Origin: Bacteroidota bacterium
Lineage (GTDB): Bacteria; Bacteroidota; Rhodothermia; Rhodothermales; JANQRZ01
Direction of reading: 5' to 3'
Length of the DNA stretch: 64,000 bases
NCBI GenBank assembly: GCA_038746285.1
Contig: JBCDKT010000006.1
Coordinates: 1-64,000, forward strand
The notes under the pieces were generated by a model. The model was not told the origin of the DNA. It did no database searches and saw nothing but the letters and a program-made list of their open reading frames with translations. Shown in pieces: positions 14,178-52,784 of the stretch (its first letter is position 1; the number at the start of each line of letters is the position of its first letter). The position numbers and the translations under genes are program-made.

Positions 14178-14198
14178 CCGTTAAATCGGCGGGACGTG

Positions 14199-14293
14199 GG
14201 CAGAGGACGGTGGGACGGAGGACAGAGGACGGAGCGGGCTGAGTAAGTTAGCCACACCCACGGTCTTCTGTCTACCGTCCTCCGTCTTCTGCC
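14199..14293. repeat. Word-repeat quasi-palindrome between clpX and the methyltransferase gene
   Basis: The left arm (14199-14231) repeats GGCAGAGGACGG and GACGGAGGACAGAGGACGG. The right arm (14261-14293) has CGGTCTTCTGTCTACCGTCC and TCCGTCTTCTGCC. The arms are about 33 bases each and pair imperfectly. It sits between the divergent clpX and RsmB-like genes and runs up to the latter's ATG. Confidence 0.6.
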
Positions 14294-15238
14294 ATGCTCC
14301 CTGCCGTCTTCCTCGACCGACTCGCCCAGATCGTTCCGCCGGACGAGCAGGGGTCTGTCCTGGAGAGCTTCGGCGCGCCGCAGGCGACGGGCTTCCGCAT
14401 CAACACGCTGCGCGCCGAGCCGGCGGCGACCGTCGCAGCGCTCGAAGGCGGGGGGCTGCACCCGCAGGCGATCGCAGGCTTCCCCGGCGCGTACTGGGTG
14501 GCGGCGGACGAGCGGGCCGGGCTCCTCGCCTCACCCGCGTACGCCGAGGGACGGCTCTACGTGCAGAACCTTGCCAGTCAGCTTCCGCCGCTCGTGCTCG
14601 GCCCGCAGCCGGGTGAGCGAGTCCTCGACCTGTGCGCCGCGCCGGGGAGCAAGACGCGGCAACTGGTCTGCCTGATGGGCGACGCGGGCGAGATCGCGGC
14701 GGTCGAGGCCGTCCGGGGGCGGTTCTTCAAGCTGCGGGCCAACCTGGAGGCGCAGGGCGCGACGTGCGTCCGCACCTTCCACCGCGACGGCGCAACGGTC
14801 TGGCGGCACCGCCCCGAGCACTTCGACCGCGTCCTCCTCGACGCGCCGTGCTCGACCGAGGGGCGCTTTCGGCTGGCCGACCCCGAGACGTTCCGCTACT
14901 GGAGCCCGCGCAAGGTCAAGGAGATGGCACGCAAGCAGCGGCGGCTCCTGTTCTCGGCGGTCCAGAGCCTCCGCCCCGGCGGTACGCTCGTCTACTCCAC
15001 CTGTACCTTCGCGCCCGAGGAAAACGAAGTCGTGCTGAGCCGGATGGTCCAGAGGTTCGACGGGCGCGTCGAGGTGGTGCCCGTCGCGCTGCCGCCGGAG
15101 GCGCGAGCGCAGGCTGCGCTCGCCGAGTGGAAGGGTAAGCCGCTGCCGGGCGTCCGGCACGCCCGCCGCATCCTCCCAAGCGAGAAGATGGAGGCGTTCT
15201 TCGTCGCCAAGCTTGTCAAGCACGAGACGACGCTGTAA
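14294..15238 (+). CDS. RsmB/NOP2-family RNA m5C methyltransferase
   Basis: 314-residue SAM-dependent cytosine-5 RNA methyltransferase. Seen: an N-terminal NOP-type region with FRINTLRAEP, SAM motif I VLDLCAAPGSKTRQL (about residues 112-127), the motif IV catalytic region DAPCSTEGRF and motif VI with the nucleophilic Cys in YSTCTFAPEENE. It lacks the NusB-like domain of full RsmB and the long C-terminal PUA-like part of RsmF, so it resembles the short NOP/Sun class. Whether rRNA or tRNA is the target cannot be told. ATG 14294. Confidence 0.88.
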   Translation: MLPAVFLDRLAQIVPPDEQGSVLESFGAPQATGFRINTLRAEPAATVAALEGGGLHPQAIAGFPGAYWVAADERAGLLASPAYAEGRLYVQNLASQLPPLVLGPQPGERVLDLCAAPGSKTRQLVCLMGDAGEIAAVEAVRGRFFKLRANLEAQGATCVRTFHRDGATVWRHRPEHFDRVLLDAPCSTEGRFRLADPETFRYWSPRKVKEMARKQRRLLFSAVQSLRPGGTLVYSTCTFAPEENEVVLSRMVQRFDGRVEVVPVALPPEARAQAALAEWKGKPLPGVRHARRILPSEKMEAFFVAKLVKHETTL

Positions 15239-15243
15239 AAAAG

Positions 15244-15275
15244 GCGGCAGGCCCTCTGCGTGGAGAGCCTGCCGC
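15244..15275 (-). terminator. Rho-independent terminator of the lipoprotein gene
   Basis: On the minus strand a GC-rich stem (GCGGCAGG pairing with CCTGCCGC, inner CTCT/AGAG) is followed by CCTTTTTTAC, a proper U-tract. The 32-bp hairpin differs by a single base from that at 16580-16611, in the same orientation. Confidence 0.85.
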
Positions 15276-15298
15276 TTGGCGAGCAAAAGATTCTGTCA

Positions 15299-16489
15299 TC
15301 AACTGTTTTCACAAACGGCCGTACCTCCACATAACTCAACTACGAATCTTCCTACACGTCCGTCACTTGTCGAGACAATTATGTAATGCGTATCCCAATT
15401 TGAAAGGATGAGATAGGCTTGCGTACCATTGATCTGCGGAAATGCACGTGAGAAGATTTCATCACCGGAAGCGCGAACCCAAATCCTTGAAATGGTCTCA
15501 GACGAATTCGGAGCTAAAAGATCAACCGTAACCTGATTAGGAACTGTACCAGCCGGTATGGTTGTCGGCGACTCTGTGTCACCGTCCACACTCAGATTGG
15601 CACTCCCGGAAGACTCAAATAGAGAAAATGATAATGCCTCTACGTCAAAGACGCTAGCTGTACGGTCTATTTTACCATCGCAGTTCGGTGATGTTAGCGC
15701 GAGTTCTCCTACCTGAGCATAGGCCCCAATTTTGATCGGAGTGCCGAGAGGTATATTTCTCTTCTGTAAAGAAAACGTATGAGAATAATTTTTGAGTTGA
15801 CTAGAGGGTTCATTGCACTGGTTGTCAGCATTAGCAAGGTTGCTCCTAAACGGATCAAGATTAGCAGTGTCGATGTACATGAAAACCCCAGGTTCTCCTC
15901 CTCCCCTTACATTAAAGTAATCATAGGACCCCGGCGAGTACTCATGCGTAATTGCGCTTGCCCTGTTGAAGCTCGATTGCTGTGATATATTTATGGATAC
16001 GAAATTTACTTCTTCATCATACAGTATGGCACCATTCCAGTGATCTAGCTCTACGGGAAGAGTAATACTTCCAGATAAAACTTCAACTTTATCAATGATT
16101 CCTGAGGAGAGTAGATCGTTGGGAGAACCCATCCGGACTCCCAGGTTCAGTAGTCTGTCGAGAGGGGTGGGTCCAAAACCCATGTCTTCATATGTGTAGC
16201 TAAGAGAGGCGTTCGGCGGCTGGAGCCCAACCCAATCAGAGATAATAATCCCTCCCAGGGGATGGGACCACGAGAACGGTTTGTAATCGTAATTGGGTTT
16301 GAGATTGACATAATTGGCCTGGCTCATGCCAGGAATGACAGGAATAGAGAGTACTGTTGGGTTCCCCTCACTCGTTTGAGCTATTCCACTTCCATAGTAG
16401 TTTGTGGGATAGGGCGGTGAGTTGGTTGTAGAGTCGCAACCATTGAGGAGTGCAAGTAGAAAAACGAATAAGGCTGCTGTTCTAGGCAT
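15299..16489 (-). CDS. AT-rich predicted lipoprotein, function unknown
   Basis: 396-residue secreted lipoprotein. Seen: signal peptide MPRTAALFVFLLALLNG directly followed by the lipobox Cys (LLNGC at about residue 20), then a Ser/Thr/Asn/Pro-rich body with no motif I recognise. It has no T9SS tail. Start chosen at ATG 16489 so that the signal peptide begins normally; an upstream in-frame start would add an implausible 28 residues. Composition is strikingly AT-rich next to genes of about 65-70% GC, with many AT-ending codons, which points to recent acquisition. It carries its own promoter and terminator, and a near-copy of its terminator lies just upstream. Confidence 0.8.
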   Translation of the reverse strand: MPRTAALFVFLLALLNGCDSTTNSPPYPTNYYGSGIAQTSEGNPTVLSIPVIPGMSQANYVNLKPNYDYKPFSWSHPLGGIIISDWVGLQPPNASLSYTYEDMGFGPTPLDRLLNLGVRMGSPNDLLSSGIIDKVEVLSGSITLPVELDHWNGAILYDEEVNFVSINISQQSSFNRASAITHEYSPGSYDYFNVRGGGEPGVFMYIDTANLDPFRSNLANADNQCNEPSSQLKNYSHTFSLQKRNIPLGTPIKIGAYAQVGELALTSPNCDGKIDRTASVFDVEALSFSLFESSGSANLSVDGDTESPTTIPAGTVPNQVTVDLLAPNSSETISRIWVRASGDEIFSRAFPQINGTQAYLILSNWDTHYIIVSTSDGRVGRFVVELCGGTAVCENS

Positions 16490-16517
16490 GGCGGGGTGGT
16501 GTCGCTTGAGAGGTGAG

Positions 16518-16525
16518 CAAATATA
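16518..16525 (-). promoter_or_regulatory. -7 promoter element TATATTTG of the lipoprotein gene
   Basis: On the minus strand TATATTTG matches the Bacteroidota -7 consensus TAnnTTTG exactly and lies 29 bases upstream of the ATG at 16489. No clear TTG -33 element is seen at the usual spacing. Confidence 0.55.
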
Positions 16526-16579
16526 GCATAGTCCAGTATAGAGAAGCATAGTTCTGCTATCGCCGCTTACCAAAAGAAA

Positions 16580-16611
16580 GCGGCAGGCCCTCCGCGTGGA
16601 GAGCCTGCCGC
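16580..16611 (-). terminator. Rho-independent terminator of the first M36 peptidase gene
   Basis: On the minus strand the stem GCGGCAGG...CCTGCCGC is followed by TTTCTTTTGG. It is a 31/32 match to the hairpin at 15244-15275. Confidence 0.82.
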
Positions 16612-16646: not shown

Positions 16647-19280
16647 CTACTGCAGCAGCGTCACGCGCCTGGTGGCGGTGAACTGCTCGCCCGTGGCGCG
16701 GATCAGGTAGACGCCCGAAGCTAGGCCTGCACTGTCCAGCTCGAAGGTGTGCTCGACGGTCGCAGCCAGCAGGCCCTCGTGGAGCCGGGCCACCGTGCGC
16801 CCCATCACGTCGTAGACGAGGACGGAGACCTGCTGGGGCTCGCTCACCTCAACGGTGAACTGGGTGCGCCCGGTGAACGGGTTCGGGTAGGCCGCCGACA
16901 GCGCGTAGACGCCCGGCTCGGCCGTCTCCTCGGTGGAGACCGTCGCGGGGAGGTCGAAGTCTTCGGTCTCGTCCCCGACGACGCCGGACGAGCCCTGGCT
17001 GGCACCGACGCCCATGCCGCGCTTGGCGAAGGCACGCCAGATGATGTCCGAGTAGGCACCCCCGTAGAGCAGGCTGTCTGCCTCCAGGATGCCGTCGCGC
17101 CCATCGATGAAGCCCGGCGAGCAGGCTTGCAGCTTCAGCCCTTCGGTCACGAGCTGGAGGGCGATGTTGTTGCCCGCCGTGCCGCCAATCAGGTCGCCGT
17201 CGAAGCCTTCGGCGGCGATGAGGCCCCAGGTCATCTCCCACAGCGCGTTGGCGAAGACGCTCCCGATCCCGTGCGGGATCGAAAGGCCCGAGCGGATGTC
17301 GCCGTAGGTGGTCGGGTTGACGCTCATGTCGGTCGAGTACCGGAACGGCCGGATGCCGCCGCCAGTGGTCTCGTCGAACTGGAGGTAGGTCCCGATGCCG
17401 CGACCTTGCTCGGCCGTGTCGCCCTCGCGCATGGAGAACATGAGGCCGTAGTAGTCGCTCCAGCCCTCACCCATCTGCTCCTGGTTGCCGAGGCAGGAGG
17501 CCGCCGAGGGGCCGCCGGTGAGGCGGTTGGAGATGCCGTGGCCGTACTCGTGGACGATCACGACGTTGTCCAGGTCCGAGTCGCGGCTGAGCTGGGCCGA
17601 GAGCGCGCCCTCCGCGCCGGGCGAGTTGGCGACGAGCGAGAGGCCGGTGCTCTGCTGCACAAACGCCGAAGGGATTGTTATGTCGCTGTCGTTATCTCCC
17701 TGAGGGAGGCCCATGTTGACAAGATCCTCGGGTGATCCCGTCTCGTCGGTCCCCGTCCGTGCGTTGTTATGAACGATGACGCCGGTGGCACCGGCGTCTT
17801 GCGCGTTACGCACCTTGACAACAAAGCTGCAGTCCCCACGCTCGATGAGTGCGATGTTGCCCTCGATCTCGTCGACGTTGAAGAACTCTTCGCAGCCGCG
17901 GTCGGCTCCGTCGTCGCCGTCCTGGCTGCCGCCGTCGAAGCTCACGACCGGAACGATGCTGGAAACCTCAGCGCCGCTGGGGAAAGGCGGGCCGAAGCTG
18001 GCCGGGGCCGTCGGGTACTGCCCCGCAATCTCAGCCGGTGCGGTCACCTCAAAGATCGGCGGGGCATCCCACTGGAACATCTGCATCCGCGGCCGGCTGC
18101 CGTCGGGCGGAGTGCCGAAGTTGGCGTTGTTGGTTCCACTCCCGTCCTGCGCGTCGGCCTGGACGTAGTCGTTGCCGAGGCCGCCGTTGCCGAAGTTGTT
18201 CTGCTGGAAGTTGCCCGCGGCCTCGTCGAAGCCGTAGCGGTACATCACGTCGTGGATGAGGTTGTTCCAGTAGAACAGGTTCGTGATCGCCACGTCCTCG
18301 TATTCCACGGGCGACTGCGTCTCGAAGTCGATCGGGAAGTCGAAGATGAGGCTCTCGCCGCCGTCGGGGGCGTAGCCGGGGACGTTGTTGGCGTCGCGGT
18401 CCTCGGAGGCGTGGACGTTGTTGCCGCGCGTGATCGTGTACTGCACCGCGCCGGTGTCGTGCCACCCCAGCGGCGAGGCGGTCGGGTCGGCCGGGTTCAC
18501 CTCCAGCGTGCGGCCCCCGAACGAGGGGGCCTCCAGCGGGTACGCCCACACGTTGTAGGAGCCGGCAGCGGCACCCCGAGCACCAACCATCGGGCTGGCC
18601 GCGACGGGCCGGTAGTCAGCCGGTGCGTGCGCCTCGTCATGCGCCCACTCGTCGTGGATAACCCAGTCGTACTGCGCCAACGCCGTTCCTGTCTCGGCGT
18701 CGACGATCAGGTTCCACCAGTGCTCACCGTCGAGCTGGTAGATCGCCAGGTCCCACGCTAGGCGCAGCGCGCCCTCGTCCGTTGCGAAGTAGACCAGCTG
18801 GACGGGAATCGGCTCCAGCGAGACGCCGGCCGCGCTCAGCGTGAGCCGGTTGCGCGCGTCCATCGGCTCCACCACTGCCGCCGCCGCGCCCAGCGACAGC
18901 CCGAGGTGCCCCGCCGCCGCGGACACGGCCCCGGCCGGCGTCAGCGTCGGCTCGGCGGTGTTGGCGGCCCGCGCCGCACTCGGGACGAACGACGAGCGCA
19001 CGGCGTGGACGCCGCCGTCGGGGGCGACGTGGGCGCTGGCCCGGGCGTTGAAGACCTCGATGCCGCCGACAGTCTGGCGGAGGTAGAGGTGGGTCACGCC
19101 GCTGGTGCGGCTGGTGTACTCGTCGGTGACGGCGACGTCCGCGAGGTCGGCTTCGGTCAGGCCGAGCGTGGCGCGCTGCGCGTTGAGGTGCTCCAGCGCG
19201 GTCGAAAGCTCGGCGCTTTGCGCAAAGGTGAGCGGGGCGCTCACAGCAAGTAGCGTGAGCGCGAGTAGAAGTCGGTGCAT
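16647..19280 (-). CDS. Secreted M36 (fungalysin) metallopeptidase with T9SS tail
   Basis: 877-residue zinc endopeptidase expected to be exported and moved across the outer membrane by T9SS. Seen in order: signal peptide (LAVSAPLTFAQ), an FTP/PepSY-like propeptide (about 20-210; TSGVTHLYLRQTVGGIEVFN), the M36 catalytic domain interrupted by a PA domain (about 430-540; NIALIERGDCSFVVKVRNAQ), the zinc site HEYGHGISNRLTGG with His577 and His581 and catalytic Glu578, the third ligand in MGEGWSDYYG, and a type A sorting domain (AYPNPFTGRTQF ... LASGVYLIRATGEQFTATRRVTLLQ-type end). All catalytic residues are present. It forms a tandem pair with the next peptidase and has its own terminator. Confidence 0.93.
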   Translation of the reverse strand: MHRLLLALTLLAVSAPLTFAQSAELSTALEHLNAQRATLGLTEADLADVAVTDEYTSRTSGVTHLYLRQTVGGIEVFNARASAHVAPDGGVHAVRSSFVPSAARAANTAEPTLTPAGAVSAAAGHLGLSLGAAAAVVEPMDARNRLTLSAAGVSLEPIPVQLVYFATDEGALRLAWDLAIYQLDGEHWWNLIVDAETGTALAQYDWVIHDEWAHDEAHAPADYRPVAASPMVGARGAAAGSYNVWAYPLEAPSFGGRTLEVNPADPTASPLGWHDTGAVQYTITRGNNVHASEDRDANNVPGYAPDGGESLIFDFPIDFETQSPVEYEDVAITNLFYWNNLIHDVMYRYGFDEAAGNFQQNNFGNGGLGNDYVQADAQDGSGTNNANFGTPPDGSRPRMQMFQWDAPPIFEVTAPAEIAGQYPTAPASFGPPFPSGAEVSSIVPVVSFDGGSQDGDDGADRGCEEFFNVDEIEGNIALIERGDCSFVVKVRNAQDAGATGVIVHNNARTGTDETGSPEDLVNMGLPQGDNDSDITIPSAFVQQSTGLSLVANSPGAEGALSAQLSRDSDLDNVVIVHEYGHGISNRLTGGPSAASCLGNQEQMGEGWSDYYGLMFSMREGDTAEQGRGIGTYLQFDETTGGGIRPFRYSTDMSVNPTTYGDIRSGLSIPHGIGSVFANALWEMTWGLIAAEGFDGDLIGGTAGNNIALQLVTEGLKLQACSPGFIDGRDGILEADSLLYGGAYSDIIWRAFAKRGMGVGASQGSSGVVGDETEDFDLPATVSTEETAEPGVYALSAAYPNPFTGRTQFTVEVSEPQQVSVLVYDVMGRTVARLHEGLLAATVEHTFELDSAGLASGVYLIRATGEQFTATRRVTLLQ

Positions 19281-19410
19281 GAGCCTCTGGGGGTAGTGGG
19301 AAAGAGGAACGAAGACTAGAGGATACTACTAGAAGCCGCTCTCTGCAAGGGAGAGGCGACTTCTCGCACTCTTGTTACCGGCCTGTGAGAAACGCCCCGG
19401 CGGGGACGGC
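19281..19410. other. Gap between the two M36 peptidase genes
   Basis: No gene. On the minus strand just after the upstream peptidase stop there is a short CCCCG/CGGGG hairpin followed by CGTTTCTC (19387-19405). Farther on is an imperfect GCCTCTC/GAGAG stem near 19334-19360. Either could be a weak terminator. Confidence 0.35.
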
Positions 19411-22077
19411 CTACCGCAGGAGCGTGATGCGACGGGTAGCGGTGAAGTGCTCACCCGTGGCACGGACCACGTACACGCCCGAGGCCAAGTCTGCCCCGTC
19501 CAGCTCAAACGCGTGGGGGACACCTGGACTCAGCAAGCCGTCGTGGAGCCGGGCCACCGTGCGCCCCATCGCGTCGTAAACGACGACGCTGGTCTCCTGG
19601 GCAGCCGCTACCTCGACGGTGAACTGAGTATGCCCGCTGAACGGGTTCGGGTAGGCCCCCGACAGCGCGTGGGATCCCCGGACGGCTCCGATGCCGGCCG
19701 AGGTCGTCCGAAGGTCCGGCGGTAGGTCGAACGCCTCGTTGCCGTCGTTGACCGAGTTCGACGAGCCCTGGCTGGCGCTGAAGCCGAGGCCGCGCCGGGC
19801 GAAGGCGCGCCAGATGATGTCCGAGTAGGCACCCCCGTAGAGCAGTGCGTCGGCCGCCAGGATCGCGTCGCGCCCATCGACGAAGCCCGGCGAGCACGAC
19901 TGCAGCTTCAGCCCCTCGGTGACGAGCTGAAGGGCGATCGTGTTGCCGCCGTTGCCCGAGATGAGATCGGCCGCGAAGCCTTCCTCGGCGATGAGGTCCC
20001 AGGTCATCTCCCACAGCATGTTGGCCCAGATGCTCCCCACCCCGTGCGGGATCGAAAAGCCGCTGCCGATGTCGCCGTAGGTGGTCGGGTTGACACTCAT
20101 GTCGGTCGAGTACGGGAACGGCCGGATGCCGCCGCCGTCGGTCGGTTGGAAGGTGACGTAGGTGCCGATGCTGCGGACCTGCCCGGGGGTGTCACCGGGG
20201 CGCATGGAGAACATGAGGCCGTAGTAGTCGCTCCAGCCCTCACCCATCTGCTCCCGGTTGCCGAGGCAGCTGGACGTGCCGGGACCGCCGGTGAGGCGGT
20301 TGGAGATGCCGTGGCCGTACTCGTGGACGATCACGCCGTTGTCCAGGTCCGAGTCGCGGTCGGGGCGCGCGAGGAGGGCACCCCGGACGGGCGCGTTCGC
20401 GACGATCGTCAGCCCCGTGCTCTGGCGGACGAACGCTGCCGGAATCGTGACCTGGTCTCCGAATGAACCGGGCCCCATCTCGATGAGGTCCTCGGGGCTG
20501 CCGTTCTCACCGGAGCCGGTGCGGGCGTTGTTGTGGACGATCACGCCGACGGCCCCTGCGTCCTCAGCGGCGAGGGCTTTGAGGCCGAACTCGCAGCCAC
20601 CACGCTCGATAAGCGCGATGTTGCCTGCGACCTCGACCGTGTTGATGATGGCCTCGCAGGCGCGGTCGGCCCCATCGTCGCCGTCCTGGCCGCCGCCGTC
20701 GAGGCTGACGACGGGGACGATCTGGGGGATGGCGTCGGCGGCGGACTCTGCGGTCGTCGGAAGGCTCGCCGGGAAGCTCGGTCCGAAGGTGGCGGGTTCG
20801 GTGTCGTACCCCCCGGCGATCCCTGCCGGAGCCTTGATCTCGAAGCTCGGCGAGCCGTTCCACTCGAACATCTGCATCCGCGGCCGGCTGCCGTCGGGCG
20901 GGGTGCCGAAGTTGGCGTTGTTCCTCCCGCTTCCGTCCTGCGCCTCCGCCCGCACGTAATCATCGCCGAGGCCGCCGTTGCCGAAGTTGTCCTCCTGGAA
21001 GTTGCCCGCCGCCTCGTCGAAGCCATAGCGGTACATCACGTCGTGGATGAGGTTGTTCCAGTAGAACAGGTTCGTGATCGCCGCATCCTGGTACTCGACG
21101 GGCGACTGCGCGCTGAGATCGACGGGGAAGTTGAACGAGAGGGCCGCGCCGCCGTCAGGGGCGTAGCCGGGCGCATTGTCGGCGTTGCGGTCCTCGTACG
21201 CATGGACGTTGTTGCCGCGCGTGATCGTGTACTGCGCTGAGCCGTCGTCGTGCCAGCCGAGGGGCGAGGCCGCCGGGTCAGCCGGGTTCACCTCCAGCGT
21301 GCGGCCCCCGAACGAGGGGGCCTCCAGCGGGTACGCCCACACGTTATAGGTTGCCCCCCCGCCGGTGCTGCGTGCCCCGAGGCTGGGCTCGGGCGAGAAA
21401 GGGCGGAGGTCGGTGAGCGCAGGCGGCTCGTGCCACTCGTCGTGGACGATCCAGTCGTACTGGGCTAGCACCGCGCCCGTCTCGGCGTCGACGATCAGGT
21501 TCCACCAGTGCTCACCGTCGAGCTGGTAGATCGCCAGGTCCCACGCCAGGCGCAGCGCGCCCTTCTCGGTCGCAAAGTAGACGAGCTGGACGGGAATCGG
21601 CTCCAGCGAGACGCCGGCCTCGCTCAGCGTGAGCCGCTTGCGCGCGTCCATCGGCTCCACCACTGCCGCCGCCGCGCCCAGCGACAGCCCGAGGTGGCCT
21701 GCTGCCGCCTCGACGGCCTCTTCCGGTGTCAGCGACGGCTCGGGCGCGTTAGCCGCACGCGCCGCGCTCGGGACGAAGCTACTCGTGAGCGCGTGCACCG
21801 CGCCGTCGGGCGCGACGTGAGCGCTGGCGCGGGCGTTGAAGACCTCGATGCCGCCGACGGTCTGGCGGAGGTAGAGGTGGGTCACGCCGCTGGTGCGGCT
21901 GGTATACTCGTCGGTGACGGCCACGTCGGCGAGGTCGGCTGCGCTGAGGCCGAGGGCGGCGCGCTGGCCGTTGAGGTGGTCGAGGGCGGTGGCGAGGGCC
22001 GCGCTGCGGGGCGCGTCCTGCGCCGCCGCGAGCGGAGCCGCGACGAGGAGGGCGAGCACGAGTGGGAGTCGGTACAT
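19411..22077 (-). CDS. Secreted M36 metallopeptidase paralog with T9SS tail
   Basis: 888-residue paralog of the neighbouring peptidase with the same architecture: signal peptide ending AAPLAAAQ, propeptide, M36 domain with inserted PA domain, and C-terminal T9SS type A domain (AYPNPFSGHTQFTVEV ... GVYVVRATGEHFTATRRITLLR). Zinc site HEYGHGISNRLTGGP with His585 and His589 and Glu586 is intact. ATG 22077 chosen because MYRLPLVLALLVAAPLAAAQ is a complete signal peptide. Sequence agreement with its partner is patchy: long blocks in the propeptide and around residues 240-270 are almost identical at DNA level, while the PA insert diverges. This fits tandem duplication with later gene conversion. Confidence 0.93.
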   Translation of the reverse strand: MYRLPLVLALLVAAPLAAAQDAPRSAALATALDHLNGQRAALGLSAADLADVAVTDEYTSRTSGVTHLYLRQTVGGIEVFNARASAHVAPDGAVHALTSSFVPSAARAANAPEPSLTPEEAVEAAAGHLGLSLGAAAAVVEPMDARKRLTLSEAGVSLEPIPVQLVYFATEKGALRLAWDLAIYQLDGEHWWNLIVDAETGAVLAQYDWIVHDEWHEPPALTDLRPFSPEPSLGARSTGGGATYNVWAYPLEAPSFGGRTLEVNPADPAASPLGWHDDGSAQYTITRGNNVHAYEDRNADNAPGYAPDGGAALSFNFPVDLSAQSPVEYQDAAITNLFYWNNLIHDVMYRYGFDEAAGNFQEDNFGNGGLGDDYVRAEAQDGSGRNNANFGTPPDGSRPRMQMFEWNGSPSFEIKAPAGIAGGYDTEPATFGPSFPASLPTTAESAADAIPQIVPVVSLDGGGQDGDDGADRACEAIINTVEVAGNIALIERGGCEFGLKALAAEDAGAVGVIVHNNARTGSGENGSPEDLIEMGPGSFGDQVTIPAAFVRQSTGLTIVANAPVRGALLARPDRDSDLDNGVIVHEYGHGISNRLTGGPGTSSCLGNREQMGEGWSDYYGLMFSMRPGDTPGQVRSIGTYVTFQPTDGGGIRPFPYSTDMSVNPTTYGDIGSGFSIPHGVGSIWANMLWEMTWDLIAEEGFAADLISGNGGNTIALQLVTEGLKLQSCSPGFVDGRDAILAADALLYGGAYSDIIWRAFARRGLGFSASQGSSNSVNDGNEAFDLPPDLRTTSAGIGAVRGSHALSGAYPNPFSGHTQFTVEVAAAQETSVVVYDAMGRTVARLHDGLLSPGVPHAFELDGADLASGVYVVRATGEHFTATRRITLLR

Positions 22078-22099
22078 GAGCCTGCGGTTGAATGGAGAA

Positions 22100-22186
22100 G
22101 GCCGGGGCGGGGAGGATAGACACGGGAGGGACAACCCGCAAGGGCGGATCAGCTTCTCCCTGTGTCTCCTTTGCCCTGCCCCGGCC
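22100..22186. repeat. Large quasi-palindrome, probable terminator after creD
   Basis: The left arm (22100-22127) runs GGCCGGGGCGGGGAGGATAG then ACACGGGAG. The right arm (22156-22186) runs CTCCCTGTGTCTCC then TTTGCCCTGCCCCGGCC. The outer 8 bp pair perfectly and the inner part with a few mismatches. It lies directly after the creD stop and before the M36 start, consistent with ending the creD transcript. Confidence 0.6.
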
Positions 22187-49353: not shown

Positions 49354-51036
49354 TTACTCACCGCCGCCGCGGCGCGAGCCGCCCCGGCTGGACCGACCGC
49401 TGGAGTTCGACGAGCCGCGCGACGACGGGCGGGCCGTCCCCCGCGACGACGAGCCGCGCGAACTCGGGCGCGCACTCGGGCGAGGTGCCGGACGCGGAGC
49501 CGGGCGCGCACTCGGGCGGCGGTTGGAGCTGCTGGAGCGGGCACCGTCGTCGTTGCCAGACCGGCGGCGCGGCGGCTCGGAGCGTGGGCGCGGTGCGGAG
49601 CGCTCGGTGCGAGGCCGAGGCGCAGGGCGCTCGGTGCGGGTACGCGGGGTCGGGCGCTCGGTCCGGGTCCGGCGGTCGGGCTGCGGAGCCACGCGCGGCG
49701 TACGGTCAGGCTGCGGTCGGACACGAGGCGACCGGTCGGGCTGCGGACGGACGCGAGGCGTAGACCCCTCCCGAACCGAGGGCTGGTCCGAGGGACGCAC
49801 CCGGGTCGAGGGACGCACCGACGGAGCCGACGTGGAGGGGCGAACACGCGTGGACGGACGAACGGACGGCGACGAGGTCGAAGGACGGACGCGTGTGGAG
49901 GGGCGGACGGACGGCGCGGAAGCCGCCGACGGGCGGACGCGCGGCGGCGTGCCAAGCTGGGGCGCATCGGTGCGCGTCGGCCGGACCGGCGTGTCGCGGT
50001 CGGTGGAGGCCGAGAGCGACGCGCCCGCCGGGCGGATCGGCGTACCTGCGCGGACCGCGTCGCGGACGGACTCCTGCCGCGCGGCTACCTGCTGCTGCGC
50101 CGAGCGCGAGAGCGTGCGGATGCTGCCCACGCCGAGCGGCGCGTCGAGCAGCACGTCGCCCCGGCGGCGGTCGTTGGCGTAGGCCGAGAGCGCGTTGCGG
50201 CGCGTCCGGTCGGTGCCGAGCGCCGTGCGGATGCTGCCCCGCGTGCCGCCGCCCCGGATGCCGCCGCTACTGCCGCCGTAGAAGCCGCCGCCGTAAAACC
50301 CGCCGTTGTAGAAGCTGCCGTCGAAGAAGCCCGCCGCGTACCCGTCAAAGAAGCCGGCCCCGTAGCCGCCGAAGAACGTCGGGCGGAACCCGTAGTAGGG
50401 CGCGAAGAAGGGGTCGTAGAAGAAGGGGTCGTAGAAGCCGGAGTAGAAGGGCCTGCCGAAACCGAAGCGGAAGCTCACGCCGAAGCTGTAGCGGAAGCGC
50501 AAGTCGAAGAAGGGATCGAAGCCGTAAGCCCACGACGGGGCCGGGTAGAACGGCGAGTAGAACTGGTAGAAGCGGCAGCGGAAGGGGCGGTAGTACGGCG
50601 CGTAGCTGACGAAGTAAGGACTGTAGTACGAGCCGCCGAAGTAGTCGGAGCCTGCGTCGTAGTAGCGGTCATAGTCCTCGTAGACCGGGTCCTCGTAGCG
50701 GTAGCGCGTGACCTGCACGTCGTCGTCGTAGTACCCGCCGCCGTAGGTCTCGCCGTAGGTGTCCTGGTAGACGCCCTCGGCGTAGGTCTCTCCCTCGTAG
50801 TAGATCGTCTCGCCGGCCTCCGGGGCATAGCCCAGGCCGACGCGGGCCGTGCTGCCGGTCCAGGTCGGGGCCGCCTCCGGCTCAGCGCTCGTGCGCTCAG
50901 CGTAGTCGGCGGGGAGGCGGTAGTCGCTGCCGGCGGCGTAGGCGGCGTCCGCGCCGAGCTGGGTGTAGCAGCTCGACAGGCTGAAGCTCACCGCGACGAG
51001 CACGAGCGGGACGAGGAAGCGGGGAAGCGGGTTCAT
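49354..51036 (-). CDS. Tyr- and Arg-Pro-rich repeat lipoprotein
   Basis: 560 residues, function unknown. Seen in order: lipoprotein signal with lipobox SLSSC (Cys about 23), an acidic Tyr-rich part (about 70-150; YRYEDPVYEDYDRYYDAG), a Phe/Tyr/Gly-rich part (about 150-270; YDPFFYDPFFAPYYGF), a short folded-looking region (about 275-350), and a basic Pro/Ser/Arg tail of about 200 residues with tandem units SVRPSTRVRPST and PRVRPQPDR, then RTRTERP and SRGSS runs. The strong charge segregation suggests a phase-separating or polymer-binding envelope protein, but that is only a guess. ATG 51036. It is divergent from proS. Confidence 0.75.
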   Translation of the reverse strand: MNPLPRFLVPLVLVAVSFSLSSCYTQLGADAAYAAGSDYRLPADYAERTSAEPEAAPTWTGSTARVGLGYAPEAGETIYYEGETYAEGVYQDTYGETYGGGYYDDDVQVTRYRYEDPVYEDYDRYYDAGSDYFGGSYYSPYFVSYAPYYRPFRCRFYQFYSPFYPAPSWAYGFDPFFDLRFRYSFGVSFRFGFGRPFYSGFYDPFFYDPFFAPYYGFRPTFFGGYGAGFFDGYAAGFFDGSFYNGGFYGGGFYGGSSGGIRGGGTRGSIRTALGTDRTRRNALSAYANDRRRGDVLLDAPLGVGSIRTLSRSAQQQVAARQESVRDAVRAGTPIRPAGASLSASTDRDTPVRPTRTDAPQLGTPPRVRPSAASAPSVRPSTRVRPSTSSPSVRPSTRVRPSTSAPSVRPSTRVRPSDQPSVREGSTPRVRPQPDRSPRVRPQPDRTPRVAPQPDRRTRTERPTPRTRTERPAPRPRTERSAPRPRSEPPRRRSGNDDGARSSSSNRRPSARPAPRPAPRPSARPSSRGSSSRGTARPSSRGSSNSSGRSSRGGSRRGGGE

Positions 51037-51308: not shown

Positions 51309-52784
51309 ATGGCAGACGCCATTACGCCCCAGCAGCACGACTACTCGCAGTGGTACGTCGACGTGGTCCGCGCCGCGGGCCTCGCCGAGTACTCGCCCGT
51401 CCGGGGGTCGATGATCATCCCGCCCAACGGCTACGCGCTCTGGGAGAACATGCAGCGCGCCCTCGACGGGATGTTCAAGGCGACGGGCCACCGCAACGCC
51501 TACTTCCCGCTCTTCATCCCGCAGAGCTTCCTCGCCCGCGAGGCCGACCACGTCGACGGCTTCGCCAAGGAGTGCGCCGTCGTCACCCACTACCGCCTCA
51601 AGACCGACGACGCGGGCGAGCTGATCGTAGACCCCGAGGCCGAACTGGAGGAGCCGCTCATCGTCCGCCCGACGAGCGAGACGATCATCTGGGACGCCTA
51701 CAGCCGGTGGATCCAGAGCTGGCGTGACCTCCCGATCCTGATCAACCAGTGGGCCAACGTGGTCCGGTGGGAGATGCGGACGCGGCTCTTCCTCCGCACC
51801 GCCGAGTTTCTCTGGCAGGAGGGCCACACCGCGCACGCGACCGAGGCCGAGGCCGTCGAGGAGGCGCGCCGGATGCTCGACGTCTACGCGACCTTCGCCG
51901 AGGACTGGATGGCGATGCCGGTCGTACGGGGCGCGAAGACCGAGAGCGAGCGCTTCCCCGGGGCCGTCGACACCTTCGCGATCGAGGCGCTGATGCAAGA
52001 CGGCAAGGCGCTCCAGGCGGGGACCTCGCACTTCCTGGGGCAGAACTTCGCTCGCGCCTTCGACTGCACCTTCACCAACCAGAGCAACGAGCAGGAGCAC
52101 GTCTGGGCGACGAGCTGGGGCGTCTCGACGCGCCTCGTCGGCGGCCTCGTGATGACGCACGGCGACGACCAGGGCCTCGTCCTCCCGCCGCGCCTCGCGC
52201 CGACGCAGGTCGTCGTCGTCCCGATCTACCGCGCGAACAAGCCCGACGACAAGGAGGCCGTACTCGACGCCGCCGAGCGCATCCGCCGGGACCTCGACGT
52301 GGCCGGCGTCCGCGTCCACGTCGACGCCCGCGAGGCGCAGCGGCCGGGCTGGAAGTTCAACGAGTACGAGGTGCAGGGCGTCCCGCTCCGCCTCGCCGTC
52401 GGCCCGCGCGACGTGCAGAACGGCACCGTCGAAGTCGCCCGGCGCGACCAGGACGGCAAGCAGTCCGTGCCGCTCGACACCCTCGCCGACACCGTCACGA
52501 GCCTCCTCGACGCCATCCAGCAGGGCCTGTTCAACCGCGCCCGCGACCGCCGCGACAGTCGCACGGCAACGGTCGACTCGTACGGCGACTTCAAGGCGGC
52601 CGTCGAGGACGGCGGGTTCGTCCTCGCCCACTGGGACGGCACGCCGGAGACCGAGGCGCGCATCAAAGAGGAGACCAAAGCCACGATCCGCGTCGTTCCC
52701 TTCGAGCGCGACGACGAGCCCGGCCAGGACCCGCTGACCGGCCAGCCCTCCGCCGGCCGCGTCCTCTTCGCCCGAGCGTACTAG
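51309..52784 (+). CDS. proS: Prolyl-tRNA synthetase, archaeal/eukaryal-type
   Basis: 491-residue class II aminoacyl-tRNA synthetase charging tRNA-Pro. Seen: motif 1 region ([20 protein letters not shown]), motif 2 ([24 protein letters not shown]), motif 3 ([20 protein letters not shown]) and a C-terminal anticodon-binding domain ([13 protein letters not shown]). It lacks the INS editing domain of the long bacterial ProS, so it is the short archaeal-type enzyme (type 3), which is common in Bacteroidota. ATG 51309. Confidence 0.94.

Follow-up and report, generated by a model that had tools for sequence, protein, structure and literature searches.

A lipoprotein gene of foreign composition between two copies of a local terminator hairpin at a methyltransferase/M36 peptidase junction in the Rhodothermales

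Minimal mobile elements (MMEs), as described in PMC3082526, consist of conserved neighboring genes with a variable whole-gene cargo between them and no mobility gene, and in its passages on MMEs this source does not mention a duplicated terminator at the border. A literature search found no matching natural case of a terminator-flanked insertion or a terminator duplication; the closest case, as PMC8880864 presents it, is an engineered insertion that duplicated a terminator. The junction analyzed here, in the genome of a bacterium of the Rhodothermales (G000), lies between an rRNA methyltransferase gene and an M36 peptidase gene. In our comparison it resembles an MME to which a duplicated border terminator has been added. 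As in the MMEs of Neisseria and other bacteria, the conserved neighbors stay together (methyltransferase and M36 in eight genomes), different cargo is found at the same place, here at the species level only (a lipoprotein gene in G000, a 197-aa protein gene in G002, none in six genomes), and there is no mobility gene, the insert being one gene without a Pfam match above the cut-off. Unlike in MMEs, the cargo here has a nearly identical copy of the local terminator on each side, and the variation is between species. The exchange that defines MMEs is by homologous recombination in the flanking genes; the likeness described here is one of arrangement.

Integron gene cassettes consist of a gene and an attC hairpin, which has attC core motifs. 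Like a cassette, the locus has a single gene followed by a hairpin repeat, with direct repeats on both sides, but the whole genome holds just one gene with two such repeats, no integrase gene lies between the repeats or was seen beside them at the locus, and the hairpin is a terminator with a T-tract in which attC core motifs were not recognized by eye. Elements of the XerCD/dif-like or att type also show direct repeats of about 30 bp around foreign DNA and one copy at the empty site. They differ from this locus, where a T-tract follows the GC-rich palindrome that forms the repeat and the insert contains no integrase; a dif-like architecture was not recognized by eye at either repeat (H1 and H2).

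The hairpin pair and the gene between them

The window, i.e., the whole stretch of DNA that was analyzed, comprises 64,000 nucleotides. The junction contains these features:

14294..15238, plus strand: RsmB/F-type rRNA methyltransferase gene, 314 aa, left neighbor (Pfam Methyltr_RsmB-F, E 1.6e-41)
15237..15275, minus strand: H1 with its A-tract, terminator of the lipoprotein gene, read as an extra copy of the local terminator (31/32 to H2, terminator scan, fold z -5.1)
15299..16489, minus strand: inserted gene, predicted 396-aa lipoprotein beginning MPRTAALFVFLLALLNGC (translation, GC, GC3, no Pfam match above the cut-off)
16490..16579, minus strand: AT-rich region upstream of the lipoprotein gene (read from the sequence)
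16573..16611, minus strand: H2 with its A-tract, terminator of the M36 gene (repeat match, terminator scan, fold)
16647..19280, minus strand: M36 fungalysin-type metallopeptidase gene, 877 aa, right neighbor (Pfam Peptidase_M36, E 1.3e-138)

H1 (15244-15275) and H2 (16580-16611) are 32-mers in the same orientation that differ at one base (31/32 identical), exactly as a preliminary description of this DNA had stated, and 100 shuffles of the window gave a chance expectation of 0 for such a match. The repeat extends leftward into the A-tract only (39 nt, 92%), and its right end is the edge of the palindrome. Both hairpins fold as DNA far better than shuffled sequences (z: H1 -5.1, H2 -6.5), and the terminator scan identified both as minus-strand terminators with T-rich tails (CTTTTTTA and TTCTTTT). 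The preliminary description had them ending two unrelated genes, and two genes do end there, H1 terminating the lipoprotein gene and H2 the M36 gene; its wording needs correction, in that both of these genes are on the minus strand and the methyltransferase gene is on the plus strand, converging from the left with a stop codon that abuts H1.

A search with the 28-base hairpin core, allowing up to three mismatches, returned two places in the genome (4,075,081 bases), namely H1 and H2. The hairpin as a common terminator, which the preliminary description had named as a finding that would speak against insertion, is therefore rejected, since both of its copies in the genome are at this locus. Matches to the GCGGCRGGC arm at C4:128217 and C5:22333 have different centers. 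Among the 114 genomes of the order, the sequence occurs twice in G000, once in G001 (the sole other genome of the genus examined), where it sits at an empty site, and in none of the other 112.

This distribution bears on the earlier proposal that gene and hairpin move together as a cassette. Gene and hairpin could have arrived on a donor circle or fragment, by one crossover in the resident hairpin; terminator-gene-terminator is the expected product of a single crossover, the 31/32 identity fits it, and PMC8880864 describes an engineered marker insertion at a terminator that duplicated the terminator around the marker. However, the hairpin is found at no other locus of G000 or G001, and the composition of the gene points to a distant low-GC donor, which is unlikely to have carried the hairpin of the host. 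We consider this route improbable, and the idea of a self-moving cassette is not supported. A transposable element with a target-site duplication was also rejected: the insert has no transposase, the protein occurs once in the genome, and the hairpin is found only here.

Exactly one gene lies between H1 and H2, as previously described: a minus-strand open reading frame with an ATG at 16489 and its stop at 15299-15301. By eye, its N-terminus is a plausible lipoprotein signal. The G+C content of the insert is 46.2%, compared to 71.7% in the methyltransferase gene, 68.6% in the M36 gene, and 69% in the window, and GC3 is 43% vs. 91% and 90% in the two neighbors, in agreement with the earlier statement that the insert is far less GC-rich than its flanks. 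The earlier remark that no transposase was seen likewise agrees with our reading, as neither a transposase nor an integrase was seen in the insert. The lipoprotein has no paralogue in its own genome, and searches of 59 relatives, of another 243 genomes from the class, and of viral contigs and plasmids gave no homologues. Two matches among 394 other genomes of the phylum (per-genome E 0.002-0.004) are at chance level, and on these sequence searches the gene has no convincing homologue in the sets covered. A single-sequence structure prediction was uninformative (mean pLDDT 31.7).

The claim that the gene has its own promoter stands in part. Upstream of the gene on the minus strand, TATATTTG (16518-16525) resembles TAnnTTTG, which we take to be the Bacteroidota-type -7 promoter motif, but inspection by eye gave no match to a -33 element near it, and a scan for the sigma-70 consensus in the minus-strand upstream region gave none either.

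The M36 protein also carries PA, FTP, and C-terminal secretion (Por_Secre_tail) domains according to Pfam. Its gene is part of a tandem pair of M36 peptidase genes (16647-22134) that are 76% alike, the second at 19411-22134; at this place G001 has one M36 gene, and G002 and G425 each have two adjacent related genes. Between genes at 14196-14296, the window has a stretch made up of degenerate heptamer-like words (GGACGGAGGACAGAGGACGGA and its complement). Words of this type have 17 more short matches in eight other sampled contigs of G000, with no match in the parts of G001 and G002 that were sampled, and word-like repeats with other letters were seen by eye in intergenic regions of L055, L240, and L030.

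The same junction in related genomes

The methyltransferase had matches in 54 of the 60 genomes of the relatives search (own genome included). We compared 29 methyltransferase loci of other genomes, each with 1.5 kb of flank, and found M36 beside the methyltransferase in five (G001, G002, G013, G053, and G059); searching the 114 genomes of the order with M36 brought two further cases, G424 and G425. With G000, the two genes are thus adjacent in eight genomes from two families, six of them empty and two filled. Contig L061 appears to be G053, and the gap sequence of L062 is that of G425; neither was counted twice.

The preliminary description had predicted that, after an insertion, a relative would show an empty site where a single hairpin joins the methyltransferase to M36. 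G001 shows this arrangement: about 95 bp separate the stops of the two genes, with no gene and one hairpin, which has the same arms as H1 and H2 and a different loop. The other five empty sites (G013, G053, G059, G424, and G425) belong to another family and have no gene, each with its own single strong hairpin; a second, weaker stem is present in G013 (overlapping the methyltransferase stop), G053, and G424 (overlapping the M36 end). Because the single-hairpin empty site occurs in the same genus and the hairpin is not a general terminator, the insertion reading is supported by these sequence comparisons. H2 is probably the original copy, since the sequence flanking it on the right is similar to that on the right of the single hairpin at the empty site of G001. 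The left flank, from the methyltransferase stop to H1, differs from G001 by about 16 nt, and the breakpoint is therefore not base-exact.

In G002, which belongs to the same family and another genus, the junction holds a different minus-strand gene. It encodes 197 aa with a signal-like start (by eye) and has a hairpin on each side; these two agree with each other at 24 of 27 positions and less well with the hairpins of G000. Its GC3 is 80%, and the protein is not an orphan, having homologues in nine other of the 114 genomes of the order. The insertion in G000 looks recent because of its foreign composition and 31/32 hairpins, and that in G002 looks older because of its milder composition and more diverged hairpins, a pattern that fits a simple clock with n = 2. 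The family was sampled by three genomes (G000, G001, and G002), so the events at the site are few, and no two strains were found of which one is empty and the other filled.

An error of assembly, with contigs misjoined at the 32-bp repeat, could give a similar picture in G000: the assembly comprises 134 contigs with an estimated contamination of 2.6%, and the composition of the insert is foreign. A misjoin would, however, need the same hairpin at both ends of the foreign fragment, and the same architecture was found independently in G002, leaving this explanation with hardly any credibility.

The two filled sites could also have had a different history, in which an MME-like slot already carried two similar hairpins, genes were swapped by homologous recombination in the neighbors, gene conversion kept the hairpins alike, and the empty sites arose by deletion between them. 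G000 and G002 do differ in the gene at this place, which in both is flanked by a pair of hairpins; the hairpins are more alike within a genome than across genera, as conversion would give, and deletion between hairpins leaves exactly one, as in G001. However, in all five genomes from the other family the site lacks a gene and has one main terminator, so that the single-hairpin state looks ancestral, and two hairpins preceding any gene are an extra assumption. We regard a pre-existing slot as unlikely, although it deserves some weight, and retain the insertion into a single-hairpin site as the preferred reading.

Near-identical terminators across three genomes

Terminator-like hairpins were surveyed in a 2.2 Mb sample (G000: 1,256,727 bp; G001: 643,844 bp; G002: 310,336 bp), which contained 84, 61, and 32 of them, respectively. 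Pairs on the same contig and less than 6 kb apart were treated as near, and the remaining within-genome pairs as others. At a similarity cut-off of 0.6, three of the 84 near pairs reached the cut-off vs. none of the 5,728 others, two of the three being those of the studied junction, which were known before the survey; leaving these two out, the counts are 1/82 near vs. 0/5,728 others. In a smaller sample of sequence, a version with a similarity of 0.7 gave 2/19 near vs. 0/1,149 others, and laxer hairpin criteria applied to that smaller sample gave 3/58 near vs. 0/2,643 others at 0.6. Near-identical terminators were found solely as close neighbors; H1 and H2 are therefore a local duplication, not a common terminator. 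A REP-like palindrome was rejected as well, with two copies at up to three mismatches and no distant pair at the cut-off.

The third similar pair is on contig C3 of G000, where hairpins at 50246-50276 and 52211-52241 are 31/31 identical (L055:10246-12241) and enclose a gene for a 591-aa protein with a C-terminal secretion-type tail (by eye). The first hairpin contains the stop codon of the left neighbor, presumably a purine-nucleoside-phosphorylase-like gene. At this locus, both the gene and the hairpins are absent from G001 and G002, and the left gene is followed directly by the next gene. The C3 hairpins lie within a longer 80%-identical repeat that includes a coding stretch for the secretion domain, and because this longer stretch accompanies them, the pair may have arisen by gene-level duplication. 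Separately, L055:12253-12540 holds an orphaned copy of a C-terminal secretion-type domain, the rest of the gene being absent; this stretch and its hairpin share about 80% identity with the end of the adjoining gene.

A gene-level duplication could be imagined for H1 and H2 too, if the M36 gene and its terminator had been duplicated in tandem and the lipoprotein gene had then replaced the outer copy. A second M36 gene adjoins the first in G000 (19411-22134), a tandem also exists in G425, and the C3 pair does look like the duplicated end of a gene with a secretion domain. Against this, the 23 bp that separate H1 from the lipoprotein stop show no apparent trace of M36, the tandem M36 genes have no hairpin between them, and the cargo of G002 is again a single unrelated gene. 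We hold this scenario to be very unlikely for H1 and H2.

Proposed capture of single genes at a terminator

The reading that we favor, as reasonably probable, is that the methyltransferase/M36 junction is an insertion point that has been used repeatedly for single accessory genes and where a copy of the terminator comes to lie on each side. The AT-rich lipoprotein gene, foreign to this genome, would have entered at the M36 terminator and brought its own upstream region, and the event would have left one terminator palindrome on each side, M36 keeping H2 and the new gene acquiring H1. The hairpin copy looks locally made because the hairpin is found nowhere else in the genome and otherwise in the empty site of G001 only. 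Template switching during capture may have copied the palindrome, as may the processing of a hairpin extruded at a stalled fork. Alternatively, the gene may have entered by recombination through the 32-39 bp of homology. None of these routes would involve a dedicated recombinase. The preliminary description had likewise suggested entry by recombination between terminators; the insertion itself is supported by the empty sites, and the recombination step is possible. No Ku homologue was found in the three genomes (G000, G001, and G002), and capture by classical, Ku-dependent end joining is therefore unlikely.

Bacterial genomes contain many single foreign genes for which no route of entry is visible. 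At this junction, an empty state, two different genes, and a terminator doubled each time provide a testable footprint of entry without mobility genes, which could show how genes that arrive in this way still bring a terminator. We tentatively suggest, as a possibility beyond this locus, that intrinsic terminators at the ends of convergent genes serve as landing sites that renew themselves: foreign DNA captured at the palindrome would end up with a hairpin copy on each side, and the element would need no recombinase of its own. If this is true, the newcomer would gain a working terminator, the host gene would keep its own, recombination between the hairpin copies would remove the gene cleanly, and the site would be ready for the next insertion.
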